From: Rheinheimera sp.
Lineage (GTDB): Bacteria; Pseudomonadota; Gammaproteobacteria; Enterobacterales; Alteromonadaceae
NCBI GenBank assembly: GCA_008015325.1
Contig: SSFI01000021.1
Location: 1-45,966, forward strand
Direction: 5' to 3'
DNA length: 45,966 bases
The position numbers and the translations under genes are program-made. Under the pieces are notes generated by a model. That model made no database searches and was not told the origin of the DNA. It saw only the letters and a program-made list of their open reading frames with translations. Numbering within the stretch: position 1 is the first letter of the stretch; every line of letters begins with the position of its first letter. Shown piece by piece: positions 1,359 through 36,002 of this stretch.

Positions 1359-1958
1359 TCAGCCCGCCGTTGTATGCGCCAGCCGCAGAATCATTTCGGC
1401 GGCATCGCAATGACAATCAAAGCCACAGCGTACACATTCATAGCCGTTCAGGCTGTCTTGCCGCCATTTATCCGGATGGATTTTTACCAGCTCGCCACCA
1501 TGTTTGCTGAAATAGCGCACCGCTGCATTGCCCGGGCTTTGCACCCACAGATGCGCCACACCGGCGACAGCACCTTGTGCGACAAAAGCCTGCATCGATA
1601 ATTTCAGCAGCGCGCCGCCAATCCCGCAGCCCTGTAAATCTGGCCGCACTGTATTGCATTTAAAATAACCGACCTGCGCTGATGGTACGCGCCATAACTC
1701 TGGACTGCACCATTGGTCCGGTTGCCACTGACCCGGTGCAAACGCCAGCCGGAAACCGGCCAAACCCTGGTTGTCCAGCGCGACGACGCCGGCGTTGTGG
1801 CCGGCTTTTTGGCCTTGCTGATAATAAACACGGATTAACTCGTCACTCAGATAGCCATCGCCATGTACCTGATTTCCCAGCGCAATCACGGCGGTAAAGT
1901 GTTCCGGGCTTAATGGTTGATAACGGACCGGATTAAGCGGTGGTTTGACGTCTGGCAT
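1359..1958 (-). CDS. GNAT-family N-acetyltransferase
   Basis: A 199-residue protein with the GNAT acetyl-CoA-binding signature. The motif A region reads VRPDLQGCGIGGALLK (about residues 104-119), with the pyrophosphate-binding Q/RxxGxG/A pattern. A C-terminal motif B-like segment contains VRYFSKHGGELVKIHP. These enzymes transfer acetyl groups from acetyl-CoA to an amine, and the substrate here is unknown. GGAG lies five bases before the ATG at 1958. The C-terminus carries cysteines and a histidine (CVRCGFDCHC) that resemble a small metal-binding tail, which is unusual for GNAT proteins. It is divergent from the FAD oxidase gene, with a 77-bp shared upstream region. Confidence 0.85.
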   Translation of the reverse strand: MPDVKPPLNPVRYQPLSPEHFTAVIALGNQVHGDGYLSDELIRVYYQQGQKAGHNAGVVALDNQGLAGFRLAFAPGQWQPDQWCSPELWRVPSAQVGYFKCNTVRPDLQGCGIGGALLKLSMQAFVAQGAVAGVAHLWVQSPGNAAVRYFSKHGGELVKIHPDKWRQDSLNGYECVRCGFDCHCDAAEMILRLAHTTAG

Positions 1959-2035
1959 GACAACTCCGCAAGACTTGGAAATTCAGCGTTATCTTGCCAT
2001 GATGCGCTCTGAATTGCAGTAATCAGGATGTCCTT

Positions 2036-3376
2036 ATGTACGATCCGCTTCATGACCTCTCACCAGGCCAGGGCCAACCTTATCCGGACAGTTATTGGGC
2101 CGCACATTCCGGCACTGCGCCGGCAGATGATGGTACCCTGACCCAGGATCTGGATGTCGATGTCGCAATTGTTGGTGCCGGATATACCGGTTTATCCGCT
2201 GCTTATCATCTGGCGACGGAGCACGGCGTCAAAGCGCTGGTGCTGGAGGCGAATCAAACTGCCTGGGGTTGCAGTGGCCGCAATGCTGGTTTTGTGCTGA
2301 AATCCAGCGGCCGCAAACCTTATGCGCAGATGGAAAAGCAATGGGGCGAAGCCGTGATGCGCGGGGTCTACCAGGAGTTTCAGGCTGGGTTAGATCGGGT
2401 GCGGCAGTTGATTAGCCTCGGCATCGATTGTGACCAGCAGGAGTCGGGTTACCTGCGAATGGCCCACAAAACTTCAATGGTGCCAACCCTGGAAGCGCAG
2501 GCACGGTTACTGGAAAAAACCTTTGGCGCTGAAGTTGAGTTGTTAAGCCGGAGCCAGGTACATCAGCGTTATGTCGCCGATGAGCAGAGTTTTGGCGCTC
2601 TGCGCTTTGCCGATGCTTTTGGCGTTAATCCGCTGAAACTGGCCTGGGGTTATCAGCGTCTGGCGCGCAGTGCCGGTGCGTCTGTACATACCGCCAGCCC
2701 GGTGCTGCAGTGGCAGACCAACGGCCGTACGCAGTTGTTACAAACACCACAGGCGCAGGTGCGGGCGCGCAAAGTTATCTTGGCCACCAATGGCTACACG
2801 CCCAAACAGCTGCATCCAGGCGTTCAGGCACGTACCTTACCTGTGTTATCGCAAATTATCGTGACCGAACCGCTCAGCGCTGAACAGCTCGCCGCCTGTA
2901 ACCTGTTGACGTCTCAAGTAGTGATGGATACCAGGGCGCTGAAATACTATTACCGAAAATTGCCGGATAACCGGATTTTGTTTGGTGGCCGTGGGGCCAT
3001 CACCGGCAGTGATGCCGAAAATCCATATTATGCCCAGCGATTGCTTGAGGTGCTGAAACTGAGTTTCCCGGCACTGCGTGCGCTGAAATACGACTATCAG
3101 TGGTCGGGCTGGATCTGCATGGCGCTGGATGACATTCCGCATTTATATCAGGCTGATATGCACGGTGATGTGGTGTATAGCATGGGCTATTGTGGCAGCG
3201 GCTTGTCCTTTTCAGTGCAAGCCGGTAGACGGCTGGCGGATAAAGTTATGGGGTTGCCGCAGCCGGACTTACCGCTGTATCAGTCGGCTCTGCCAAAGTT
3301 TCCGCTGGCACCGCTGCGTCGCGTTGGCCAATGGGGTTATTTCCATTACGGTAAATGGAAAGACCAATGGTGGTAA
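2036..3376 (+). CDS. FAD-dependent amine oxidase, PuuB/DAO family
   Basis: A 446-residue flavoprotein of the D-amino-acid-oxidase superfamily. The FAD-binding Rossmann motif VAIVGAGYTGLSAAYHLA lies at about residues 44-61, followed by the second-strand acidic residue in LVLEAN. The segment WGCSGRNAGFV is typical of gamma-glutamylputrescine oxidoreductase and related glycine/sarcosine-oxidase-like enzymes. The C-terminal GYCGSGLSFSVQAGRRLADKV closes the FAD site. Such enzymes oxidise a primary or secondary amine with release of H2O2. The actual substrate cannot be assigned, and no other putrescine-pathway genes are nearby. The start ATG has AGGA (2025-2028) seven bases upstream. The divergent GNAT gene may share regulation. 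Confidence 0.88.
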   Translation: MYDPLHDLSPGQGQPYPDSYWAAHSGTAPADDGTLTQDLDVDVAIVGAGYTGLSAAYHLATEHGVKALVLEANQTAWGCSGRNAGFVLKSSGRKPYAQMEKQWGEAVMRGVYQEFQAGLDRVRQLISLGIDCDQQESGYLRMAHKTSMVPTLEAQARLLEKTFGAEVELLSRSQVHQRYVADEQSFGALRFADAFGVNPLKLAWGYQRLARSAGASVHTASPVLQWQTNGRTQLLQTPQAQVRARKVILATNGYTPKQLHPGVQARTLPVLSQIIVTEPLSAEQLAACNLLTSQVVMDTRALKYYYRKLPDNRILFGGRGAITGSDAENPYYAQRLLEVLKLSFPALRALKYDYQWSGWICMALDDIPHLYQADMHGDVVYSMGYCGSGLSFSVQAGRRLADKVMGLPQPDLPLYQSALPKFPLAPLRRVGQWGYFHYGKWKDQWW

Positions 3377-3469
3377 GTCTGGGTCATGCTGACAATTTGG
3401 TAAATTAATTGTTGCATTTCTCTGGTTGCGACATTAATTTATGGTCACTTCGCGGATTGGAGTGTCACT

Positions 3470-3673
3470 GTGGAATTGTTGGCCATGGATTGGTCGGGTC
3501 TGGTCCTGACTTTTTGCTTTATTTACGGTATTTATGCGCCTTGTTTGCTGACGTTGCTTGACCAAGAGCACCGTTGGCCGCAACGATTATTGGCTTTGCT
3601 CCCTTGTTTGTTTTTGTCCTGGCTGGGTTATTGGCTGAGTCAACGACATCTGAAATACAGTGATTCGGCCTGA
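3470..3673 (+). CDS. small membrane protein, unknown function
   Basis: A 67-residue protein with two likely membrane helices (about residues 8-28 and 38-58), separated by a charged loop with DQEHRWPQR. It starts at GTG 3470, supported by GGAG (3459-3462) seven bases upstream. I recognise no family. It stands alone between the FAD oxidase and the ABC exporter genes, with about 155 bp before the latter, so an operon link is not certain. Confidence 0.6.
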   Translation: MELLAMDWSGLVLTFCFIYGIYAPCLLTLLDQEHRWPQRLLALLPCLFLSWLGYWLSQRHLKYSDSA

Positions 3674-3831
3674 GGTTTTTCAACCGACCTTTGTCAAAAT
3701 GACTAATCTTTAGTGTTTTCGACGCACCTGGCTGCCGCCATTTTTTATAAAATTGTTTAATTTCATTTAGTTGGATATTGGTACTATCTTTGCCAGCACA
3801 GTTAATCTGAACTGCAAAAAAGGAAGTGCCA

Positions 3832-4662
3832 ATGTCAGCCGCTTTATCTTTATTTGGTCGCCAGACCTGGCTTTATAGCCGCTTTGAATTACAACGTTTG
3901 TTTTTAACCCCGCGCGGCTGGTTTGCACTGGCGGCTTTTACCACTATTTGGTACTTCCTGTTACGTTATCCGATTTATCAGGCCAGCGTGCAGCTGCAGG
4001 AACCGGAAATTCAGCAGATGCTGAGCGGTATGCTCGGCATGGTTGGGATGTATAACCTGCTGAACTGGTCATTGCCGGAATTGTCGGTGTACTGGGCTCT
4101 GACGGTATTTTTCATGCCACTGGCGGTGCTCTTTGCCACCGCAGATCAAACCTGTTCTGACCGCTCGCGCGGTACCTTGCGTTTCCTCACTTTACGTTCC
4201 AGCCGCGACAGTATTTTCTTCGGCCGTTTTATCGGGCAGATTCTGGTGCAGGCGCTGCTGATCGGTTTGTCGTTATTGGCCACTTTGGTGCTGGCGGTCT
4301 GGCGGGTTGGCGAATTGCCACTGTCTGCGCTCAATGCGGCGCTGGTGATCTGGCTGAATCTGTTGATTGTGTTGCTGCCCTTTACTGCGCTGATGGCGCT
4401 GTGTTCGGCGTTGGTTCGTTCCAGCCGGCTGGCGATTAGCCTGGCAATTGTCAGTATCGGCGCCGTGGCCGGCCTGCTGGGTTATCTGGTCTGGCACTTC
4501 CCGGATCTGCGGGTGGTACTGGAATATCTGCCGGGCGCGCAATTACCGATGTTATTAGGTGCGCAAGGCTGGGATACGCTGAAACACTGTGGCTTGCCAT
4601 TATTACAAACTGCGGTGCTGCTGCTGATTGGCCGTATCGTGATGCAGGAGAAAGCATTATGA
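3832..4662 (+). CDS. ABC-2 type transporter permease
   Basis: A 276-residue inner-membrane protein with about six hydrophobic helices. Its N-terminal cytoplasmic segment ends in FELQRLFLTPRGWFALAAFT, the typical amphipathic entry of ABC-2 permeases such as NosY. The ATG at 3832 is chosen over an in-frame GTG at 3826 because AGGA (3821-3824) is correctly spaced for it. The stop overlaps the start of the ATPase gene (ATGA), so the two are translationally coupled and form one exporter. The substrate is unknown. Nothing in the neighbourhood (no nos genes) supports a nitrous-oxide role. Confidence 0.88.
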   Translation: MSAALSLFGRQTWLYSRFELQRLFLTPRGWFALAAFTTIWYFLLRYPIYQASVQLQEPEIQQMLSGMLGMVGMYNLLNWSLPELSVYWALTVFFMPLAVLFATADQTCSDRSRGTLRFLTLRSSRDSIFFGRFIGQILVQALLIGLSLLATLVLAVWRVGELPLSALNAALVIWLNLLIVLLPFTALMALCSALVRSSRLAISLAIVSIGAVAGLLGYLVWHFPDLRVVLEYLPGAQLPMLLGAQGWDTLKHCGLPLLQTAVLLLIGRIVMQEKAL

Positions 4663-5579
4663 GTTATCTGATTGAAGCGCGGCATTTAAGTAAATCTTTT
4701 GGCCAAAAAGCCGTATTGCAGGACCTGACTTTCAGCCTTCCGGCTGGTGAACCTATCGCACTGATTGGGCCCAATGGCGCCGGTAAAACCACGCTGTTCA
4801 GTTTGTTGTGTGGTTATCTGCCGGCCAGCAGTGGTGAGTTAAAAGTGTTAGGCCATAAACCCGGCAGCAGTGCTTTGTTTGGTCGGGTCAGTGCCTTGCC
4901 GCAGGATGCGATGCTGGACCCAAATTTTTCGCTACTGACCCAGCTGAGTTTTTTCGGCCAATTACAGGGTATGAGCAAAGCCAAAGCGCTGGCCGAAAGC
5001 CGCCGGGTGCTGAGCCTGGTTGATTTAGCCGGCAGCGCGGACTTAAAAGCTACGGCGCTGAGTCATGGCATGCGTAAAAGAGTGGCCATCGCGCAGGCGC
5101 TGATGGGCAGTCCGGAACTGGTAATGCTGGATGAGCCGACCGCAGGTCTTGATCCGGTCAATGCTTTACAAGTCCGACAGCTGATCGCGACTTTGTCCGG
5201 TGAAGCCAGTTTTATCATCAGTTCACATAACATTTTTGAGCTGGAACGGCTGTGCGGCACAGTGCTGTATCTGGAGCACGGCAAACTGGTGCAACAAAGC
5301 GCGGTGCAAAGTGCCGCAACGCAGGGTTATGTCACCCTGACTTTGGAACCTGGCGCTTATACAGACGTGCTGCCCCAACTGCGGGCGCTGCCGGGTGTGA
5401 TCGCGGTCAGTGACAGTCAGAAATATGAATATGTGCTGCAGTTTGATGCGGAGCTGGCACCGGATTTTGACTTAACTTTGTTGATGGCACTGCGCCAGCT
5501 TGGCTGGCGTTATCGCCAGTTGACCAAAGGCCAGACGCTGGAGCAGCAATTGTTTGCGGTGACGGCGAAACAGGCCTGA
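4659..5579 (+). CDS. ABC transporter ATP-binding protein
   Basis: A 306-residue nucleotide-binding subunit partnered with the preceding permease. Walker A is GPNGAGKTT (about residues 37-45). The signature region reads LSHGMRKRVAIAQAL in place of the usual LSGGQ, with H instead of the first glycine. Walker B with catalytic glutamate is LVMLDEPTAGLDP, and the H-loop histidine is in IISSHN. About 80 extra C-terminal residues follow the ATPase core, as in NosF/CcmA-type exporters. The start overlaps the permease stop by four bases. Confidence 0.92.
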   Translation: MSYLIEARHLSKSFGQKAVLQDLTFSLPAGEPIALIGPNGAGKTTLFSLLCGYLPASSGELKVLGHKPGSSALFGRVSALPQDAMLDPNFSLLTQLSFFGQLQGMSKAKALAESRRVLSLVDLAGSADLKATALSHGMRKRVAIAQALMGSPELVMLDEPTAGLDPVNALQVRQLIATLSGEASFIISSHNIFELERLCGTVLYLEHGKLVQQSAVQSAATQGYVTLTLEPGAYTDVLPQLRALPGVIAVSDSQKYEYVLQFDAELAPDFDLTLLMALRQLGWRYRQLTKGQTLEQQLFAVTAKQA

Positions 5580-5592
5580 CAGCGCTGGATAC

Positions 5593-5916
5593 TCAGGTTT
5601 GCAGATACTTCAGTTTGTCCGGGACCCCATTCCAGGCGTCGGCATCGTCCGGCGCCGGTTGCACTTCGGTGATATTGGGCCAGATCTCACTGAGTTCGGC
5701 ATTGAGTTCGAGAAAAGCTTCTTGCCCCGGCGGTAAAGCATCCTGCTGATAAATCGCCTGGGCTGGGCATTCCGGCTCACACAGACCGCAATCAATACAA
5801 GCGGTTGGGCTGATCACCAGGAAGTTGGGGCCTTCGAAAAAGGCGTCGGCCGGGCAGACAGCGACACAATCGGTGTATTTGCATTTGATGCAGTTGTCGG
5901 TCACTACAAAAGCCAT
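5593..5916 (-). CDS. fdxA: 7Fe ferredoxin (3Fe-4S / 4Fe-4S)
   Basis: A 107-residue electron carrier closely resembling Azotobacter vinelandii ferredoxin I. The first cysteine set is C9, C12, C17 and C21-P, and the second is C40, C43, C46 and C50-P. In the Azotobacter protein the equivalents of C9, C17 and C50 hold the 3Fe-4S cluster, and those of C21, C40, C43 and C46 hold the 4Fe-4S cluster. The free cysteine near position 25 of that protein is alanine here. The start is the ATG at 5916, with AGGA about eight bases upstream. A longer open frame to 6093 has no homology-like sequence. The partner reductase is not identifiable locally. Confidence 0.95.
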
Positions 5917-6007
5917 GACAGCAATTCCTGAAATGAAGGCCGGGAAATTCCGGCGAATTGTAATGCAGCAGGCCGAAATTACAAGACGGGCCGCGGCTGG
6001 ATAAAAC

Positions 6008-25778: not shown

Positions 25779-25963
25779 GTTTCTGCTTTCTGCCCCACCT
25801 TAATTTCACCGCAACCGGCGTGCCATTGAGCGCAGCCGGCTGCTTTGCTGAAAAAAACAAGTGACCTCACAATTATTTTTCATTATGTTAACGCCACTTA
25901 ATAGCCCTATTTATTCAAAGGTTGTTACGACAACCCTCTGACTCAGCGAGGAATTCTGCTTTT

Positions 25964-28582
25964 ATGTCCGCATTATTTTTAAAAACGCCACTGGCGCTGG
26001 CCGTCAGCGCAAGTTTATTTTGGTCTGTTGCCGCTTTGGCTGCCGTGCCAGCTGACCGCGATGTATTACCCGCCGGCGCCAGCCCGCAGCAGTATCAGCT
26101 GACCATAGATCCGGATTTACAGAAACTGAGCTTTCAGGGCGAACTGACTTTGGATTTTACCGCCAGCCAAACGCTGAACGAGCTGGTGCTGAACGCGCTG
26201 GATTTAACCATTATTGATGCCAGCATTGACGGTAAAAAAGTCGACACCGACGTGGTCGCCGCCACACAACGCGTGCACTTCAAAGCGCCGGTCAGCCCGG
26301 GCAAACACCAGCTGCGCGTGCGTTATCAGGGTAAGATTTACGAGCAGTCGGCCGGATTATTTGTCACCGACTACAGCAAGCCAGATGGCAGCACCGGCCG
26401 CATGTTGTCCAGCCAGTTTGAGCCGGGCGATGCGCGCAAATTAGCGCCGATGTGGGATGAACCTTCCCACAAAGCCATTTTTAAAATCAGCATCATTGAG
26501 CCCAAAGGCCAGCTGGCTTTATCCAATATGCCAGAGCAACGCCGTCAACCACTGCCGGATGGTCGCAACCGTGTTGATTTTGCGCCCAGCGTGAAAATGA
26601 GCAGCTACCTGCTGTATGTCGGCGCCGGCGACTATGAGCGTATTTCTGGCCGCTCCGGTGGTATTGAACATGGTGTGGTGGCGAAAAAAGGCGACGCGGT
26701 TAAAGGCGCTTTTGCCTTAAATGCCTCTTATCAGCTGCTGGATTATTACAACGACTATTTCGGTATCACCTACCCGCTGCCAAAACTCGACCATATCGCC
26801 GTGCCGGGCGCCGGTGGTTTTGGCGCGATGGAAAACTGGGGCGCCGTGATGTATTTCGAAGGCACCTTATTGCTTGACCCGCAATTCTCCAACACCAGTG
26901 ACAAACAAGAAGTGTTTGCCGTGGTCGGCCACGAAATGGCGCACCAATGGTTTGGCAATATTGTCACCATGCAGTGGTGGGATGATTTATGGCTGAACGA
27001 AGGCTTTGCGTCCTGGATGGAATCCAAAGCCAGCCAGCATTTTTATCCGCAGTGGCATGCCGAATTAGGTGCTGTCGGTTCGCGCAATTACGCTATGTTC
27101 CAGGATGCGCAGGAAACGTCGCACCCGATAGTGCAGCCGGTGCGTAATCTGGAAGAAGCCAATGCTGCTTTTGACGGTATTACCTATTCCAAAGGCTTGT
27201 CGGTCATCACTATGCTGGAAGCTTATCTCGGTGAAGAGGCGTTCCGCGCCGGTGTGCGTGCTTATATGCAAAAACACCAGTATGGCAATACAGTGACCAG
27301 CAACCTGTGGCAAGCGTTGGCACAAGCCTCAGGCCGGCCGGTTGAGACCATTGCCAACGATTTTACCAACCAGATTGGCGTGCCTTTAATCACGGCTTTA
27401 AAAGCTGAATGTCAGCAGGGCAACACAACACTGACCTTAACCCAGGGCCGCTTTGGTCTGGATGCGGCGTCAAAACAAGCTCAGCAGTGGACAGTTCCGG
27501 TTACCGCGCGAGTCGCCGGTCAGGCGGCAGCCCGCGCTGAGATACGTGGTGATGCCGGACAGACTATGACTTTGCCGGGTTGTGGCGCTGTGACGGTCAA
27601 CGCTGGTCAGACCGGTTATTACCGGGTGGATTACAGTGACGCGCTGTTTGCCGACGTGGTGAAAGGCTTTGCGCAATTGCCGGCAGTGGACCAGCTGGGT
27701 TTACTGAAAGACAGCGTGGCTTTGGGCTACGCCGGTTACAGCGACATCAGCCGTTATCTGGCACTGACGCAGCAACTGCCGGTTGATGCCAACCCTATTA
27801 TTTCCACTGACGTGGTGCAGCAGTTAGAAGGCTTTACCGATTTATACCGCGGTTTACCGGGCGAAGCTGCTTACAAAGCTTTTGCGCTGAAACGGGCACA
27901 GGCGTTGTTTGCCAAAGTCGGCTGGGAAAAACAGGCCGGTGAGTCTGATAACACCAGCATTCTGCGCAGCAGCCTGATTGGCGTGCTGGCGGAGCTTGGC
28001 GATCAAACAGTCATTAGCGAAGCGCGGAAACGATTTGCCTCCAGTCAGACCGATAAAAATGTGTTGCCGGGTGATTTATATGGCGTTGTGCTGAAAATTG
28101 TCGGCACTCAGGCCACGGCTGCTGACTTTGCGGAGCTGAAAACGCTGGCCGCCAACACCAGCAACAGCACCGAAAAACGCCGTTTGTTAGGCGCGCTGGC
28201 TTCGGCCAAAGATGCTGCGCTGGCGAAACAGGCGCTGGCCTTGTTACTGACCGATTTAACGCCAAAACAATTTGCGCCGGGTTTGTTAAACCGGGTCGCG
28301 CTGGAACATACGCAGCTGGCCTATGATTTTTATCTGGCCAATCAGGCGGCGTTTGACGAGCGGTTAGATCCGCTGCGCCGCGATGGTTTTGATGCTTCAT
28401 TGTTAGGTTCAGCCCGCGATGTGGCCACCGCAAATTTGCTACGGCAAAAAGCGGCAGCAGTCAGCAGTAAACCGGTAAAAACCGCCTATCTGGAAGCGGC
28501 TGCCGGAATCGAACGCCGGTTAGTTCGCGTCAAACGCATTCCGGCACAGGTTGACGCCTGGCTGAAAACGCAGCAGCTGTGA
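25964..28582 (+). CDS. M1-family aminopeptidase, secreted (ERAP/PepN-like)
   Basis: An 872-residue zinc aminopeptidase. It has a signal peptide (MSALFLKTPLALAVSASL..., cleavage near AALA), so it is periplasmic or exported, unlike cytosolic PepN. The exopeptidase motif GAMEN is at 287-291. The zinc site HEMAHQWFGN carries H323, E324 and H327, with E346 eighteen residues later (HExxHx18E). The transition-state tyrosine is Y408 in ITYSKG. A C-terminal ERAP1-like helical domain follows. The ATG at 25964 is preferred to a TTG at 25922; GAGGA is about 11 bases upstream. The stop overlaps the next gene (GTGA). Confidence 0.95.
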   Translation: MSALFLKTPLALAVSASLFWSVAALAAVPADRDVLPAGASPQQYQLTIDPDLQKLSFQGELTLDFTASQTLNELVLNALDLTIIDASIDGKKVDTDVVAATQRVHFKAPVSPGKHQLRVRYQGKIYEQSAGLFVTDYSKPDGSTGRMLSSQFEPGDARKLAPMWDEPSHKAIFKISIIEPKGQLALSNMPEQRRQPLPDGRNRVDFAPSVKMSSYLLYVGAGDYERISGRSGGIEHGVVAKKGDAVKGAFALNASYQLLDYYNDYFGITYPLPKLDHIAVPGAGGFGAMENWGAVMYFEGTLLLDPQFSNTSDKQEVFAVVGHEMAHQWFGNIVTMQWWDDLWLNEGFASWMESKASQHFYPQWHAELGAVGSRNYAMFQDAQETSHPIVQPVRNLEEANAAFDGITYSKGLSVITMLEAYLGEEAFRAGVRAYMQKHQYGNTVTSNLWQALAQASGRPVETIANDFTNQIGVPLITALKAECQQGNTTLTLTQGRFGLDAASKQAQQWTVPVTARVAGQAAARAEIRGDAGQTMTLPGCGAVTVNAGQTGYYRVDYSDALFADVVKGFAQLPAVDQLGLLKDSVALGYAGYSDISRYLALTQQLPVDANPIISTDVVQQLEGFTDLYRGLPGEAAYKAFALKRAQALFAKVGWEKQAGESDNTSILRSSLIGVLAELGDQTVISEARKRFASSQTDKNVLPGDLYGVVLKIVGTQATAADFAELKTLAANTSNSTEKRRLLGALASAKDAALAKQALALLLTDLTPKQFAPGLLNRVALEHTQLAYDFYLANQAAFDERLDPLRRDGFDASLLGSARDVATANLLRQKAAAVSSKPVKTAYLEAAAGIERRLVRVKRIPAQVDAWLKTQQL

Positions 28583-29422: not shown

Positions 29423-32400
29423 TTATTCTTCGTCAAGTAGAGGCCTGATGTCTGTGCCGAGCAGCAGCTGATTGATCAGCGGCAACTGGCTGGCCGGGCT
29501 ATGCGCCTGCAACGCCCGGACAAAATCCATCGCGCTTGCCGGTGGCAACGGATAGCGATGTTGTTGCCAAAGCTGACGCAGTGCCGCCACGATCACCTCA
29601 TCACCGAGTTCTGCCCGGAGCCTGGCAAACACCAGCGTGGCGCGGGAATATTGATCATAAGACTCTTCGGCATCAATCAGACTGCTGGCGGCGGCCAGAC
29701 TGCCGGCCTGCGCCCGGGCAAACCGTTGCTGCTCAAAATCCACCAGCCCCTGCATCGCTGCGCGACCAAACTGCTGTTCTAACAAAACCAGCTCGGTATA
29801 TTTGGTCACAGACTCGACCAGAAAAGCACTGTCACCGGCCACACCATTGCCGATGCCGTGGCCAAACCACTGATGCGCCACTTCATGCGCGGCGCGCCGA
29901 TACACCTGACTAAAAGGTGCGTCAGCGGTGGGCTTCGCACGCAGGCCAACGCGGTGATTGATCAGCACCAGCTGCGGCAGCGCATAGCCGGTTGGGCCTA
30001 TGTCCGGCATCATCACCAGCCGTAGCGCGTCGCCTGGGTAAGCGCCGATGTTGGCGCTGAACCATTGCACAGTGTGCTGCATCGCCTGCATGGTTAAATC
30101 GGTGGCGGTGTTAAATTGCGGGCTATGAATTTCCAGCGGCACGCCCGCCGCTGCGCTGCTTTGTTTTTGCCACGGCACTGCGATTAAGGCCGGTAAATTG
30201 CGCACTGGCGCCTCAGTGCGGTAGTGGAAAAACTGCTGGCCATCCGCCTGCCAGCTTTTGAGCAAAGCGCCGGCGGCAATGCCCTGATAACCAAGCGGTA
30301 CGGCAATGGTGATATCCAGAAAGGCCCAGTCATAACGCGCCGACGCTGGTGTGTGGCTGGCAGCCAGCACCGATGGCTGCGCCTCAGACGCCGGCAGCGG
30401 TGCCAGGCCAAAGCGCACTCGTTCGGCATCATCACGCAGACGCAATTCCGGCACAAAACCAATCTGTGGCAGCAACTGCAGTAAGCGCAGATAACTGAAT
30501 TCAGGCCGGATAATTTGGTGGCTGGGTGCCGGTGTGATGCCTTGTTGTTGCAGCAAATACTGCAGTTGCAAAGTTGTGCTGGCGCCCGGATCCAGCTGGA
30601 CGCTGAATACCTGTTGGCCGAGATTGTTATCAATGTTCGCCGCTACCGCCTGCCCGCTTTGCAGTTGCTGTAGCGCTGTAGGTGTTTGCAGGCCGGGGAA
30701 GCTCAGCAACAGCTGCGAAATCGGCTGCGCATGCGGATTGTGCAGCGTCAGCGTCGCACGGATTTTGGCTTGCTGCTGATGCGGGTCCAAATGGGCCTGC
30801 AGCGTCACTTGCTGTACTACCGGCTGCGGTACTGCCCGCCAGTGTTGATATTGCTGTTCATAGGCAGCCCGTTTTGCCAGCCGCTCGTCACGGCTTTGCA
30901 GCGCGCCGGCCGCATCGAGCTGTTGGTGAATATGCAGGCCCTGCAGCAGCGCCAATACAGCGCAGATCGCGGTCACGGCAGTCAGTGGTGTGAGTGCCGC
31001 AACCAGTTTTGGCCGGCTAAAACCAGTGCCGCGATGATAAAACTGCAACGCCAGCGTGCCCAAACTGATTGCGAGCAAAGCCCAGAACCACAAATAAGGC
31101 CAAAAGCCGCCGTGATAAACATCGCCGGCAAAGCTTTGCGCCGTGCAGCCCAAGGCGCCCTGATAACCCCACAGACTATCCGGCAGCTGCAACTGACTCT
31201 GGCCGATACGCCACAGCGGATGTTGTAGCTGCAGTAAATCTGGCAACGGTGATAAACCAAACGCCAGCAAGACTGCCGCCGCCAGATTGGCCCACAGCGG
31301 TTGGCCTAACAATGCATGGCAGGCCAGTAATAACACTGTCCAGACCCACAGCGGTAACCATATTAACAAGCCCTGCCGGCCATATTCAGCAAGGTCCAAC
31401 GGCACCTGCAACAACATTTGCGCGAGCGCAACTGCGGCCAGGCTCAGCAGTACCAGCAGCAACACCAGGCCGGATAGGACGACAAACTGGCTCAGCAACA
31501 GCAGCGCAGCAGGTTGCGGCGTGGCGGCAACCAGGCTGTCGATGCGCTGCTGGCGGTTCAGCCAGCTGAGCTGGTGCGCCCAGAAGGCGGCGAGTAACAG
31601 GCCAAACCTTGGGATCACATCATGACTGACCCGGTTCAGCGCATCGCGGCTTTGCGGCACCAGCTGACTAAAAGCTTCGGCATAACCGAGGCCGGTGTAA
31701 ACCTCGCTGAACACCAGCAAACAGAGCGCCAGCATCGCCAGTAAAGTGCCATATTGAAGACAAAGTTGCTGCAACTGCAGACGCAGCAAAGCGGCAAACA
31801 CTGGCGCTAGGCGCAGTTGCTGCGGCGGGCAAGGCTGATACTGCAGCGCTGCTGTGGTCTGCGTGATGTCGGTGGTCGCATGGGGTTGACGCTGGCTTGA
31901 TGCGACCGGGTTGCATTGCAAAGCGCGCCAGCACAATAAAGCGGTCAGCGTGACGATTAGCAGCCGGTTCAGCCAGAAGTTGATATCAAGCTGGCTCAAG
32001 CCGGCCGGCATCTCGCCGTTTTGGCGTAACTGCGCGAGCACTGGCGTCAATGCATAAGGGTCCAGATACACCATCAACTGGCTCAGTAGCGGCGACAACG
32101 ACTGACTGTTGGCCATCAGCGGCGAACCGGTGGCCGCAGCGAGCAGCATATAGCCCAGCCAGACTGCCGCGCCTTGCAGATACAGCACTATTGGTGATTG
32201 GCTGCGACAACTGCTCCACAAGGTGAGCGCAGTCAGCAGCGCCAGCGCCGGCAATTGCTGCACCAGCCATAACTGCCAGGACCAGCGCCAGATGCCCGTG
32301 GCGTCGGCATAGGTCGTCGAAAACAACAGCGCGACGAACAACACAAAAAACAGCTGCAGCAGCGCGGCACAAAGCCACAGGCCGAGTGCACGCACCACCA

Positions 32401-32686
32401 GCCGCTGGCGGCGGCTTTGGGCCGTCACTTCAATCAAAGCGCCGACGCCATGCTGGCTGTCACGCAACAGCAGCAACGGTGCCAGCACGCCAATCAGTAG
32501 CGGCTGAATCGTCATCAGCAGCATGCTATGACGCAGCAGCAGTGCTTTGACTGGCTGCGCATCGATGGTGCCCGGGTTCAGATTCACCAGCGCGGCAAAG
32601 GCCAGCGCCAGCACCACACTCAGCCAAAACAACGGCTGCACCCGGCAAAACCGCCATTCATTCAAAAGCAGGGGCCAGAGCGTCAT
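29423..32686 (-). CDS. ABC-2 permease fused to M1-type metallopeptidase
   Basis: A 1087-residue fusion. The first 590 or so residues form two sets of about six transmembrane helices, typical of an ABC-2 exporter permease. A linker (LQGLHIHQQLDAAGA) leads to a C-terminal M1-like peptidase. The zinc site is H934-E935-x-x-H938 in RRAAHEVAHQWFGHG, and the third ligand is probably E958 in FLVES, nineteen rather than eighteen residues on. The GxMEN exopeptidase motif is replaced by a segment near TGYALPQLVLINHR. A candidate catalytic tyrosine lies in YDQYSRATLVF. The start is ATG 32686, overlapping the ATPase stop. Topology suggests the peptidase faces outward, but this is inference. It may process the exported peptide. 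Confidence 0.9.
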   Translation of the reverse strand: MTLWPLLLNEWRFCRVQPLFWLSVVLALAFAALVNLNPGTIDAQPVKALLLRHSMLLMTIQPLLIGVLAPLLLLRDSQHGVGALIEVTAQSRRQRLVVRALGLWLCAALLQLFFVLFVALLFSTTYADATGIWRWSWQLWLVQQLPALALLTALTLWSSCRSQSPIVLYLQGAAVWLGYMLLAAATGSPLMANSQSLSPLLSQLMVYLDPYALTPVLAQLRQNGEMPAGLSQLDINFWLNRLLIVTLTALLCWRALQCNPVASSQRQPHATTDITQTTAALQYQPCPPQQLRLAPVFAALLRLQLQQLCLQYGTLLAMLALCLLVFSEVYTGLGYAEAFSQLVPQSRDALNRVSHDVIPRFGLLLAAFWAHQLSWLNRQQRIDSLVAATPQPAALLLLSQFVVLSGLVLLLVLLSLAAVALAQMLLQVPLDLAEYGRQGLLIWLPLWVWTVLLLACHALLGQPLWANLAAAVLLAFGLSPLPDLLQLQHPLWRIGQSQLQLPDSLWGYQGALGCTAQSFAGDVYHGGFWPYLWFWALLAISLGTLALQFYHRGTGFSRPKLVAALTPLTAVTAICAVLALLQGLHIHQQLDAAGALQSRDERLAKRAAYEQQYQHWRAVPQPVVQQVTLQAHLDPHQQQAKIRATLTLHNPHAQPISQLLLSFPGLQTPTALQQLQSGQAVAANIDNNLGQQVFSVQLDPGASTTLQLQYLLQQQGITPAPSHQIIRPEFSYLRLLQLLPQIGFVPELRLRDDAERVRFGLAPLPASEAQPSVLAASHTPASARYDWAFLDITIAVPLGYQGIAAGALLKSWQADGQQFFHYRTEAPVRNLPALIAVPWQKQSSAAAGVPLEIHSPQFNTATDLTMQAMQHTVQWFSANIGAYPGDALRLVMMPDIGPTGYALPQLVLINHRVGLRAKPTADAPFSQVYRRAAHEVAHQWFGHGIGNGVAGDSAFLVESVTKYTELVLLEQQFGRAAMQGLVDFEQQRFARAQAGSLAAASSLIDAEESYDQYSRATLVFARLRAELGDEVIVAALRQLWQQHRYPLPPASAMDFVRALQAHSPASQLPLINQLLLGTDIRPLLDEE

Positions 32687-33552
32687 TGCGTTGCCTCCTG
32701 CTTGGCCAGCGCCAGAAAATAACGGTCCTGCAAAGTGGCGGCGACCGGCGAAAAATCGGCGCCGGGGCACTCTTGCGCAAACACCCGCTGCAGTGGGATA
32801 CCGCGCTGATAACTGCGCTGCAGCAGTTGCGCCTGTGGCGGCAGGTCGATATCAGCACCATAAGCTTGCCAAATCTGGCCACTCAGCGGGCTGATTAAAT
32901 CCTGCGTGTCGCCCTGCAGCACAATCTCACCCTGCAGCAGGATGGCAACGTTCGGGCAAAGCTGCTCGATGTCATCAACAATATGGCTCGACAGCAGCAC
33001 CAGCCGGTCGCGGCTGATCTCACAGAGCACGTTATGCAGCTGCGCGCGCTCCTGCGGGTCCAGCCCGGCGCTCGGTTCGTCGAGGATTAACAATTTGGGG
33101 TTACCGAGCAGCGCCTGCGCGATGCCAAAACGCTGGCGCATACCGCCGGAAAATTGCGCCACGGTTTTGCTGGCCACATTGCTCAGGTTGGTCAGCGCCA
33201 ATAGCTGGTTGATCTGTTCGCGCCGCGGCCCGGCCTGATGCAGGCCTTTGAGCACAGCGATATGTTCAAGCAAAGCCCAACAGGACAGGTGCGGATAGAC
33301 ACCAAATTCCTGTGGCAAATAACCGAGTTGCGCACGCAGGCGCTGTGGTTCTTGTTGTACGTCGATGTCGTCAAAAAGCAACGTGCCGCTGTCGGCACTT
33401 TGCAGTGTGGCTATCGTGCGTAACAAACTGGATTTGCCTGCACCATTAGGCCCCAGCAGGCCAAACAGGCCGCGGCCGGCCTCAAGGCTTAGCTTACGCA
33501 GCGCCTGAGTGCCATCGGCATAGGTTTTGGATAGGTCCTGAATCTGTAACAT
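32683..33552 (-). CDS. ABC transporter ATP-binding protein, partner of the permease-peptidase
   Basis: A 289-residue ATPase. Walker A is GPNGAGKSS (about residues 35-43), the Q-loop is in GYLPQEFGVYP, the signature is FSGGMRQRFGIAQAL, Walker B is LLILDEPSAGLDP, and the switch histidine is in LLSSHI. About 70 C-terminal residues follow the core. The gene overlaps the permease-peptidase gene by four bases, so the pair forms one exporter. It is divergent from a LytS/LytTR two-component operon across 216 bp carrying direct repeats. Confidence 0.93.
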   Translation of the reverse strand: MLQIQDLSKTYADGTQALRKLSLEAGRGLFGLLGPNGAGKSSLLRTIATLQSADSGTLLFDDIDVQQEPQRLRAQLGYLPQEFGVYPHLSCWALLEHIAVLKGLHQAGPRREQINQLLALTNLSNVASKTVAQFSGGMRQRFGIAQALLGNPKLLILDEPSAGLDPQERAQLHNVLCEISRDRLVLLSSHIVDDIEQLCPNVAILLQGEIVLQGDTQDLISPLSGQIWQAYGADIDLPPQAQLLQRSYQRGIPLQRVFAQECPGADFSPVAATLQDRYFLALAKQEATQ

Positions 33553-33616
33553 GGCGAGTCTTCTTGCTTTGGTCGATGCACTTGAGGCTAAAACCGCAGC
33601 GCCTGTGTCTCAAGCC

Positions 33617-33649
33617 GGCAATGACCAAGCAGCCTCTGGCGATGACCAA
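33617..33649. promoter_or_regulatory. direct-repeat operator, candidate LytTR binding site
   Basis: GGCAATGACCAA (33617-33628) and GGCGATGACCAA (33638-33649) are 12-bp direct repeats with one mismatch and an exact 21-bp pitch, two helical turns. LytTR regulators (AgrA, ComE) bind paired direct repeats with this geometry. The site lies 65-97 bp before the ATPase start and about 120 bp before the kinase start, next to a LytTR regulator gene. Confidence 0.6.
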
Positions 33650-33768
33650 ACCGGGAAAACTGCCTTCGACCAGTTCGTCAGGCCAAAAGCGGTTTTTGTC
33701 AGTGCACAGATGACAATCACGCTGGCGGCAGGCAGCATAAGGCCATCACTCTTGGACTGTTTGTGCTG

Positions 33769-35289
33769 ATGAAATTTGCTGATCTGATAAAAACGCAACA
33801 TCTGTTAGCGCTGTTGCCAGTGCTGCTGGCCTGGCTGTGGGCGCTGATTTCACCGCAGATGTTGCCGTCCGATGTCGCGGCATACACGCCGCTCCCGTCG
33901 TTGTGGACAACCGCCTGGCAATCAGCGCTGCTATACCTGCCGATGTTATTCACGCAGGGCTGGCTCAGCAGATGTGAGCAACGCGGACACGGCATGGCAC
34001 TTTCCGGCTTGCTTTGGCTCGCCGCCTTTTTGATGTATCCGGCGTTTTGGTGGCACTGGAGTCAAAGCAGTGCGACAGCGTATCAGTTCGCCACGAAAGA
34101 CTGGCTGTTGGTGGCGATATTGTCGTTAATGTACTGGTGCCAGTTGGTTTATCAGCGCCGGCAACGCCGCGGGCCTTTGACCGGCTGGTCGCGGCTCTGG
34201 TCGCTGGATGCAGTACTGCTGCTGTTGCTGGCGCTTTGGACGCTGGCCTGGGCCAGCTTACTGACTTCGCACCCGCCCGGTTTTGCCGAGCAGCCAATTC
34301 CGGTGCGATTTGACTGGGCGCGCATAGTGGCAGAACCGGCGTTGTGGCTGTGGTATCTGTGGCAATTTGCTGTGCTGGCTGGCGTGATGTTCGGGTGTTA
34401 TTGGCTGACGCGATATTATTTAATCCGTCAGGTGTTGGCGCAGCAGGGTTTGCTGACTTTTGTGCTGCTCAGTCTATTGCTGATATTGGCGAGCTACGCG
34501 CCACTGGCCTGGTTGTTACTGCAACTACCGATGAACAATGGCGTTGCAGTGCCGGCCGTTCCGGGTGGTAGTCAGGATCCGTTTGACTGGTATAACTTCA
34601 ATTTTATGCTGCTGCAGTGGCTGCTAACGACGCCTTTGATCTTGGCTTTTGAACGCCAGCAACAGGATAGCGCACTGGCTCAGCTGCATCATCAGCAGGT
34701 CCGCACTGAACTGCAATTGCTGCAACAGCAAATCAATCCGCATTTTTTGTTTAATACCTTAAATAACCTGTATGCGCTGTGTTTGCTGAAGTCAGACGCG
34801 GCGCCGCAACTGGTGCTGAAGCTGGCGGATTTGCTGCGATATGTGGTGTATCAGGGCCAGCAAGAACGCGTCCCGCTGCGTGGCGAACTGGACTATCTGC
34901 AACATTATGTCGACCTGCAACAACTGCGGGTCAGTAATAAAACCACTGTGACACTGGATTTCCCGGCCGATTGCGGTGGCTGGCAACTGCCACCGCTGTT
35001 ATTGATCATGCTGCTGGAAAACGCTTATAAACATGGCGTGGAGACGAGTGCTGCAGTCAGTGAAATCTGGCTGTCGGCCAGTATCAGGCAACAGCGGCTG
35101 CTGTTTATTTGCCGCAATACACTGCCAGCACAGACTGCAAACACGACTGATACAGGCATGGGGCTGGACAATCTGCGCCGCCGCCTGCAGTTGCTGTATG
35201 GCACTGATTTTGTGCTGAAAAGTGGCCCGGATACGGCCAGCTGCTGGCACGCCGAATTACAACTGCCGCTGTGGCCGGAGTCGCCATGA
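33769..35289 (+). CDS. LytS/YehU-type sensor histidine kinase
   Basis: A 506-residue membrane kinase. The first 300 or so residues hold about eight hydrophobic helices forming the sensor. A coiled segment then leads into the His_kinase (PF06580) box QQINPHFLFNTLNNLYALC with phospho-acceptor H325. The N-box is LLLIMLLENAYKHGVE, and the G-box GMGLDNLRRRLQLLYG forms the ATP site. No periplasmic domain is seen, so it probably senses within or at the membrane. The start is uncertain: ATG 33769 or GTG 33763, both with weak ribosome-binding sites. The stop overlaps the regulator start (ATGA). Confidence 0.9.
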   Translation: MKFADLIKTQHLLALLPVLLAWLWALISPQMLPSDVAAYTPLPSLWTTAWQSALLYLPMLFTQGWLSRCEQRGHGMALSGLLWLAAFLMYPAFWWHWSQSSATAYQFATKDWLLVAILSLMYWCQLVYQRRQRRGPLTGWSRLWSLDAVLLLLLALWTLAWASLLTSHPPGFAEQPIPVRFDWARIVAEPALWLWYLWQFAVLAGVMFGCYWLTRYYLIRQVLAQQGLLTFVLLSLLLILASYAPLAWLLLQLPMNNGVAVPAVPGGSQDPFDWYNFNFMLLQWLLTTPLILAFERQQQDSALAQLHHQQVRTELQLLQQQINPHFLFNTLNNLYALCLLKSDAAPQLVLKLADLLRYVVYQGQQERVPLRGELDYLQHYVDLQQLRVSNKTTVTLDFPADCGGWQLPPLLLIMLLENAYKHGVETSAAVSEIWLSASIRQQRLLFICRNTLPAQTANTTDTGMGLDNLRRRLQLLYGTDFVLKSGPDTASCWHAELQLPLWPESP

Positions 35290-36002
35290 GCACTGCTTTC
35301 AAACTGTTGATCATCGATGACGAGCCGCTGGCGCATCAGGTATTGCTGCATCACCTGGCGGCGCATGCGGATATGGTGGTGGCCGGTCACTGCTACAGCG
35401 CCGCTGAGGCGATGGCAATGCTGGCGCAACACCCGATAGATTTGATTTTGCTGGATATTCAACTGCCGGTGCTGACCGGTCTGCAGATGCTCAAGCTGTT
35501 GGCAAAGCCGCCGCAGGTGGTGCTGGTGACAGCTTATGCCGAATTTGCCCTCGACGGTTTTGCGCTGGACGTGACCGATTACCTGTTAAAGCCGGTCAGC
35601 AGTGAACGGCTGGCGTTGGCGCTGGACAAAGTGCGTCGCCGCGCCGGGCTGCCAGCGCCTGTGGCCACACCGGCAACTGCTGTGGGGAATGAGCATATTG
35701 TGCTGAAAGTCGACCGCGAATTACGCCGCTTTGATCTGGCGTCAATTTGCTGTTTTGAAGGCTACGGCAATTACGTCAAAGTCTGGCAAGGCCAGCAAAT
35801 GACGCTGGCCAGCAGCACGTTAAAAGCTTTGATGGAACAAACGGCGGCGGCTGGTTTTATCCAGGTGCATAAATCTTTTCTGGTCAATCCCAGCCATGTG
35901 CTTAGCCTCGACAGCCAGCTGTTAAAACTGAGCAACCAGCAGCAGATCCGTATCGGTGAAGCTTTTAAAGCACAGGCGCGGCGTATCTTCACGCCGCGCT
36001 GA
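35286..36002 (+). CDS. LytTR-family response regulator
   Basis: A 238-residue regulator. The receiver domain (residues 1-120) has the acidic pair in LLIIDDEP, phospho-acceptor D57 in LILLDIQLP, and the conserved T/K positions in LVTAYAEFALDGF and YLLKPV. The LytTR DNA-binding domain spans about 135-238, with the segments ASICCFEGYGNYVKVW and FIQVHKSFLVNPSHVL. It overlaps the kinase gene by four bases. The likely target is the divergent exporter and its own operon through the 21-bp repeats (inference). Confidence 0.94.
   Translation: MSTAFKLLIIDDEPLAHQVLLHHLAAHADMVVAGHCYSAAEAMAMLAQHPIDLILLDIQLPVLTGLQMLKLLAKPPQVVLVTAYAEFALDGFALDVTDYLLKPVSSERLALALDKVRRRAGLPAPVATPATAVGNEHIVLKVDRELRRFDLASICCFEGYGNYVKVWQGQQMTLASSTLKALMEQTAAAGFIQVHKSFLVNPSHVLSLDSQLLKLSNQQQIRIGEAFKAQARRIFTPR

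Follow-up and report, generated by a model that had tools for sequence, protein, structure and literature searches.

A conserved four-gene locus of Rheinheimera sp. in which a LytTR two-component pair diverges from an ABC transporter with a predicted permease fused to an M1-fold peptidase

In a 45,966-nucleotide stretch of the genome of Rheinheimera sp. (assembly GCA_008015325.1, contig SSFI01000021.1, positions 1 to 45,966; this whole stretch is called the window below), we found that the segment 29423–36002 consists of two divergent gene pairs, that is, an ATP-binding cassette (ABC) transporter ATPase and a permease/M1 peptidase fusion on the minus strand, and a sensor histidine kinase and a LytTR response regulator on the plus strand. 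Comparison with related loci shows, at the level of sequence, that the four genes are inherited as a unit together with a conserved tandem site, the putative binding site of the regulator, in their common control region. We tentatively read this module as a self-contained, dedicated system for clearing the cell envelope, a reading that in our judgement falls a little short of an even chance. The first-pass annotation of the window had described four genes in two divergent, internally overlapping pairs around one control region, and the open reading frames proved real at the positions compiled in Table 1.

Relatives of the fusion were collected by scanning one genome per species, which gave 151 encoding places, and the best 80 of the 151 were analysed; five of these loci are cut by contig ends just upstream (L075, L099, L133, L136, and L146), leaving 75 informative ones. 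The ATPase and fusion genes lie on one strand, with the kinase and regulator genes divergent on the other, in 71 of the 75, which argues against a chance arrangement. The first-pass annotation had called for such a survey, counting a lack of conserved linkage against its proposal of a sensing-export-proteolysis unit with one control region; the linkage is conserved, and the proposal gains support from it. The four exceptions comprise L108 and L115, each a nested paralogue without a kinase–regulator pair of this family, L131, in which the fusion frame is split and no ATPase was found, and L110. In the last of these, a metagenome-assembled genome of the Alteromonadaceae (1405–5931), genes for a TonB receptor, an M48 peptidase, and a DUF898 protein stand between the kinase and the ATPase. 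The best 80 loci come from Alteromonadales, other Gammaproteobacteria (with one Microbulbifer), Sphingomonadales, and Bacteroidota; metagenome bins account for many of them, and the nearest named relative is Rheinheimera texasensis, with a fusion 90% identical to that of the window. The genes flanking the module are not common to the loci: among flanking families present in at least 8 loci, none exceeds 9 of 71, and eight of the nine loci with the commonest family are from Pseudoalteromonas. Moreover, the tree distances of kinase and fusion correlate with r = 0.935 (72 sequences, with the window fusion entered in a gapped version). Close relatives are among the loci, which therefore do not count as independent events.

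The reverse search, in 98 genomes (that of the window and those of relatives), returned 19 kinase matches spanning much of the sensor part, 17 of which adjoin a fusion; a contig break accounts for one of the 19, as in G004 the kinase, regulator, and ATPase genes stand at one contig end and the fusion gene at the start of another. A kinase–regulator pair of this family also runs divergently from a WD40-repeat gene (L159 3–2136, G050:C219), and a Colwellia metagenome-assembled genome (L132 13988–16272) has a second such pair a few kilobases past the module. Of 22 genomes of the genus, 14 have a fusion of the sensor-linked type and 19 one of a related type of about 1200 residues, as counted from match rows with only part of the neighbourhoods read. 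In one genome without the module (G017), an L-lactate permease gene lies between the two genes that stand on either side of the module in the window, the DUF6942 gene and the gene for a 704-residue protein (L157 66–4574, G017:C18). Among 369 Gammaproteobacteria sampled across the class, 10 encode any such fusion, the window's own genome included; eight of the other nine are readable as one frame (L160–L167), all without a nearby kinase or regulator from this family, and one is broken (L168).

The common control region was compared in the same way. With no consensus assumed, 44 of 72 control regions contain pairs of 9-base words, 21 bp apart, that agree in 8 or more bases; for no other distance between 11 and 39 bp does the count exceed 9 of 72. 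The derived consensus, ATGAYSAAR-N12-ATGAYSAAR, is matched at 15 or more of its 18 positions in 60 of 71 control regions, compared with 64 of 1817 stretches of equal length taken from other parts of these loci and 33 of 1420 shuffled sequences; this score test is not independent, because the consensus comes from these same regions, whereas the 21-bp word test is. A second site (at least 14 of 18) lies on the opposite strand in 54 of 71 loci, compared with 30 of the 1817 control stretches, and the offset between the facing sites is 43, 52–54, 63–65, or 73–75 bp in 39 of the 54, in steps of about one helical turn. The predicted tandem site has the geometry of LytTR operators, which are described in the accessible parts of two sources as 9-bp repeats with a 12-bp spacer (PMC6193735) and as repeats of 9–11 nucleotides with a spacer of 11–13 (PMC4847170).

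In the 3.86-Mb genome, the exact core of the window site is present only here, and three places elsewhere match it with one mismatch, against one for a reversed-pattern control. The exact site has 15 copies in the 22 genomes of the genus, of which 8 lie in control regions of modules; genomes that carry the module hold 4 others, and genomes without it hold 3. The seven copies outside module control regions look like background, and a wider regulon of the exact site was rejected on that count. These numbers support a circuit with one main target, in which the exact form of the predicted site would be dedicated to the module.

The window kinase matches His_kinase (PF06580) with E = 2.5e-25, as do all 54 kinases of the family examined, and the regulator matches Response_reg (E = 1.1e-18) and LytTR (E = 8.2e-11). 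The label 'LytS/LytTR system' of the first-pass annotation therefore holds for a receiver-plus-LytTR regulator with a PF06580 kinase, but 'LytS' applies only loosely, since the LytS input domain 5TM-5TMR_LYT was matched by 0 of the 54 kinases at E ≤ 1; the window kinase also has no GAF match. This input domain is given as general for the LytS-type kinase family in the accessible text of one source (PMC10653868). The AlphaFold model of the kinase (predicted local distance difference test score, pLDDT, 87.6; predicted template modelling score, pTM, 0.71) has eight helices that we take to cross the membrane, without a large periplasmic domain, and the closest solved structures are kinase domains, with GanS first. 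Nor are the kinases of the AgrC/ComD type, HATPase_c_5 being matched weakly in five of them (best E = 0.029). The window regulator scores 122 bits against the BtsR model, below the cut-off of 246. Elsewhere in the genome, a LytTR match (G000:C91:34607–34885) and a kinase match (G000:C67:22920–23459) each contain an in-frame TAG stop.

On the transporter side, the ATPase matches ABC_tran (E = 5.5e-30), and its relatives keep Walker A in 71 of 71 cases, the signature in 70, and the Walker B pattern in 67. Permease parts of 24 relatives searched at E ≤ 1 matched ABC2_membrane_4 in 13 cases (best 4.3e-7) and ABC2_membrane_3 in five. The term 'ABC-2 permease' in the first-pass annotation has its basis in the ABC2_membrane_4 matches of relatives and in the predicted six-plus-six helices, not in the window protein itself, whose permease part alone matches no Pfam model; a sequence profile search for a solved relative of the permease gave nothing beyond chance (one row, E = 0.7). 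The AlphaFold model of the fusion (60 aligned sequences; mean pLDDT 88.4, pTM 0.86) shows two six-helix halves, each after a further helix, with short helices after transmembrane (TM) helix 2 and before TM6, which is the helix pattern of type V transporters; the permease presumably belongs to the ABC-2-type group with relatives in lantibiotic protection. Beyond it come a 13th helix (567–593) and the M1 fold. Predicted cytoplasmic loops, delimited by the helix limits of the model, carry on average 18.6 Lys and Arg residues in the family, compared with 3.7 in periplasmic loops of similar total length (11 and 4, respectively, in the window fusion alone). Judging from the modelled helix layout and this charge bias, the M1 domain should be periplasmic. 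The proposal of the first-pass annotation that the protease acts as, or after, its substrate meets the membrane fits this predicted topology.

The fusion matches Peptidase_M1 (E = 4.9e-10), and the best 50 of 192 Foldseek matches at E ≤ 0.001 to the whole fusion model are all M1 structures, for example, 6iff with a target TM-score of 0.73. In an alignment of 93 fusions, 77 sensor-linked and 16 not (L046, L047, L050–L053, and L165 are among those left out), the zinc and catalytic columns are kept in the sensor-linked group as follows: His934 in 75 of 77, Glu935, His938, and Glu958 in 76 each, and Tyr1013 in 74; all five are kept in 16 of 16 other fusions. The fusion thus combines the M1 fold with HExxH and a downstream Glu, and HExxH-X19-E fits 89 of the 93, the spacing being X18 by eye in a neighbouring PepN-like protein. 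The exopeptidase motif of aminopeptidases, GxMEN, is known for holding the free amino end of the substrate. It was found in none of the 93 aligned fusions, the sensor-linked type having mostly GYALP at that place, and the M1 domain is for this reason probably not an aminopeptidase. ABC permease/M1 peptidase fusions are annotated in genomes, and 'ABC transporter permease/M1 family aminopeptidase' is, we assume, the database label for proteins of this architecture; the lack of the motif and the predicted periplasmic placement suggest that this common name is misleading. No paper on the role of such fusions was found in the partly accessible literature, in which subscription journals were thinly covered, so that this is weak evidence of absence.

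Fusions of the same architecture also exist under other regulators or none. The genome of the window encodes a second, distant M1/ABC fusion of about 1220 residues (G000:C120:5503–8685, L039), with an ATPase and with no kinase–regulator pair of this family nearby. This is an example of the database-type fusions of about 1200 residues, which were accompanied by the module's kinase–regulator family at 0 of 21 loci in a profile search. Two of these have pairs of other types, namely, a divergent OmpR-type regulator with a HisKA kinase (L045 2585–9065) and a divergent sigma-54-type regulator with a kinase (L046 4773–12153). A third distant fusion (L050 2819–8446, G042:C1) is divergent from an SdpR-type autorepressor (above the NCBIfam cut-off) and an SdpI gene, SdpI being the immunity family for the SDP peptide toxin, and a fourth (L072) has a PadR regulator upstream and a PspC-domain protein. 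These neighbours were chosen by eye from neighbour lists, and most of the 21 loci show none of the kind. Control by this kinase–regulator family is not essential to the fusion, because L108, L115, and the fusions of about 1200 residues have no adjacent pair of this family. Control linked to envelope stress or peptide immunity may have been gained by ABC/M1 fusions on more than one occasion, and the SdpI/SdpR, PspC, and other two-component neighbours are mildly consistent with envelope clearance.

The first-pass annotation had further suggested a link to peptide pheromones and bacteriocins and proposed a search for small peptide genes nearby. Small open reading frames of 18–100 residues were collected within about 1.5 kb of the module, and among the 20 largest clusters inspected no conserved one was found besides operator repeats and close-relative synteny. 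In the control region, the larger clusters mostly stem from translation of the operator repeats, 21 bp being a multiple of three, and those past the regulator follow the synteny of Pseudoalteromonas or Alteromonas. A conserved pheromone or bacteriocin gene at the module was rejected on the basis of this search near the loci and the comparison of flanking families. The pheromone link is weakened accordingly, since there is no conserved peptide gene and the kinase, of PF06580 rather than AgrC/ComD type, lacks the LytS sensor domain. A role in anti-phage defence was rejected as well: PADLOC left the fusion and the kinase unmatched, and its matches to the other two proteins were generic-looking ATPase or receiver ones.

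In the reading that we favour, the kinase, with eight TM helices and no large periplasmic domain, would respond to a ligand embedded in the membrane or to the transporter's state, and the LytTR regulator would bind the tandem site and switch on the divergent ABC operon. The ATPase is predicted to power the 12-TM, ABC-2-like (type V) permease, and the 13th helix would hold the M1-fold zinc peptidase at the periplasmic face, where it may cut what the permease extracts or presents. The weakest step is the substrate, which might be a membrane-active or stray hydrophobic peptide, such as an antimicrobial peptide, a signal-peptide remnant, or a lipopeptide; the cut would fall within the peptide or at a blocked end, since the domain lacks the motif by which aminopeptidases hold a free amino terminus. 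We infer activation of the ABC operon, the direction of transport, proteolysis, and the substrate alike. Extraction and cutting of membrane-active peptides is favoured on account of the lack of a soluble sensor domain, the ABC-2-type permease, the far-side peptidase, the patchy presence, and the SdpI and PspC neighbours of distant fusions. More specifically, the module may be an 'extract-and-cut' exporter, in which a built-in metallopeptidase on the far side degrades peptides leaving the inner membrane under the control of a non-LytS, eight-TM sensor and dedicated facing LytTR sites; this narrower version is possible, if rather unlikely. If true, it would represent a new, horizontally spread way for Gram-negative bacteria to protect themselves from membrane-active peptides. 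In any case, the dedicated sensor and switch offer a handle, as the signal that induces the operon should point to the substrate.

Several observations weigh against envelope clearance. The window permease part has no Pfam match of its own, 11 of 71 loci have no tandem site at the threshold, and the control region yielded no sigma-70-like promoter. At L159, no fusion lies within the 8 kb read around the kinase–regulator pair; conversely, none of the 21 distant fusions has such a pair, and envelope-stress neighbours, picked by eye, are a minority of the distant loci read. Moreover, L158 (6728–9784, G039:C12) keeps all four genes and an intact fusion frame without a single zinc ligand in its M1 domain, so that a natural pseudoprotease has stayed linked to the sensor there, and the L132 fusion lacks the first zinc-ligand His. 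From these two losses, catalysis is not always needed, and the domain can outlive its chemistry.

The main rival, which we hold to be fairly unlikely, is a sensor-controlled exporter of small molecules or ions resembling NatKR–NatAB, in which M1 would serve for binding or docking, with proteolysis secondary; NatAB is not known to have a fused peptidase. As in the module, the two-component pair NatK–NatR of Bacillus subtilis is dedicated to an ABC exporter operon, natAB, according to the title of a reference cited in PMC3498285, by which NatAB is a sodium exporter (a comparison by description only). The LytTR Regulatory Systems of Streptococcus mutans likewise combine 9-12-9 sites with conserved linkage to ABC transporters, and differ in having a membrane inhibitor instead of a kinase, a peptidase fusion being unmentioned in the accessible text (PMC6193735). 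The pseudoprotease of L158, which keeps its module, suits a docking domain, whereas the retention of the five active-site columns in 74–76 of 77 and 16 of 16 fusions argues for selection on catalysis in most members. BtsS–BtsR/BtsT and YpdA–YpdB/YhjX of Escherichia coli also resemble the module, in that a membrane kinase and a LytTR regulator activate a transporter gene, and YpdB has a direct-repeat site like the tandem site here, as far as the accessible sources describe them (PMC10653868, PMC4847170). In contrast to those systems, the module kinase matches neither 5TMR_LYT nor GAF, and the presumed target is the ABC/M1 unit.

Two further explanations assign the peptidase a trimming role. Housekeeping of the envelope, for example, of lipoproteins or lipids, by a transporter of GldA or another ABC-2 type, with M1 trimming periplasmic proteins, appears improbable: GldA is the best NCBIfam match of the ATPase (170.5 bits, below the cut-off of 402.6) and the related fusion of about 1200 residues is widespread in the genus (19 of 22), whereas the patchy sensor-linked form (14 of 22) suits an accessory function better. 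Still more improbable, in our estimation, is maturation and export of a peptide, in which the permease would export a precursor and M1 trim it to a pheromone, a bacteriocin, or another ribosomally synthesized and post-translationally modified peptide. The joining of a protease to an ABC exporter recalls the peptidase-containing transporters of C39 type, which likewise have both in one polypeptide, and the lantibiotic-protection subfamily TIGR03740 is among the matches of the ATPase, at a score far short of the cut-off (138.6 against 309.75 bits). The C39 peptidase is cytosolic and N-terminal; the fusion, in contrast, has its M1 fold C-terminal and predicted periplasmic, a mirror image of that arrangement, and no C39 domain was matched at E ≤ 0.1 in the fusion or the ATPase. 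The flanking families and the control-region reading frames described above, largely operator repeats, and the type of the kinase also speak against a peptide precursor.

The features of the module are compiled in Table 1. The fusion likely starts at ATG 32686 (1087 residues, as against 1115 from GTG 32770), and ATG 33769 and ATG 35286 are likewise the likely starts of the kinase and the regulator. The overlaps of 4 bp are common, not universal, at related loci, occurring between ATPase and fusion in 19 of 71 and between kinase and regulator in 25 of 71.

Table 1 Genes and predicted regulator sites of the module (positions in the window)
Feature	Position	Strand	Remarks
Fusion of ABC-2-like permease and M1 peptidase	29423..32686	-	Open reading frame reaches GTG 32770; Pfam, AlphaFold, Foldseek
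Parts of the fusion			12-helix permease (two 6-TM halves), residues ~1-550; 13th helix, 567-593; M1 zinc peptidase domain, ~620-1087
ABC transporter ATPase	32683..33552	-	Pfam, Walker A in relatives; stop overlaps fusion ATG (ATGA)
Predicted regulator site 1, ATGACCAAG-N12-ATGACCAAA	33621..33650	+	18/18 to consensus
Predicted weaker site 2, facing site 1, CTGACAAAA-N12-CTGACGAAC	33673..33702	-	14/18; 52 bp from site 1
Sensor histidine kinase, PF06580	33769..35289	+	8 predicted TM helices, then DHp/ATPase domains; open reading frame open from GTG 33763
LytTR response regulator	35286..36002	+	Open reading frame open from GTG 35271; ATG overlaps kinase stop (ATGA)

Two genes from the module, the window also encodes a secreted-looking, canonical PepN-like M1 aminopeptidase of 886 residues with GAMEN present (25922–28582). 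This neighbour appears incidental, because the R. texasensis relative (L055) is the only other one of the loci compared in which it adjoins the module.

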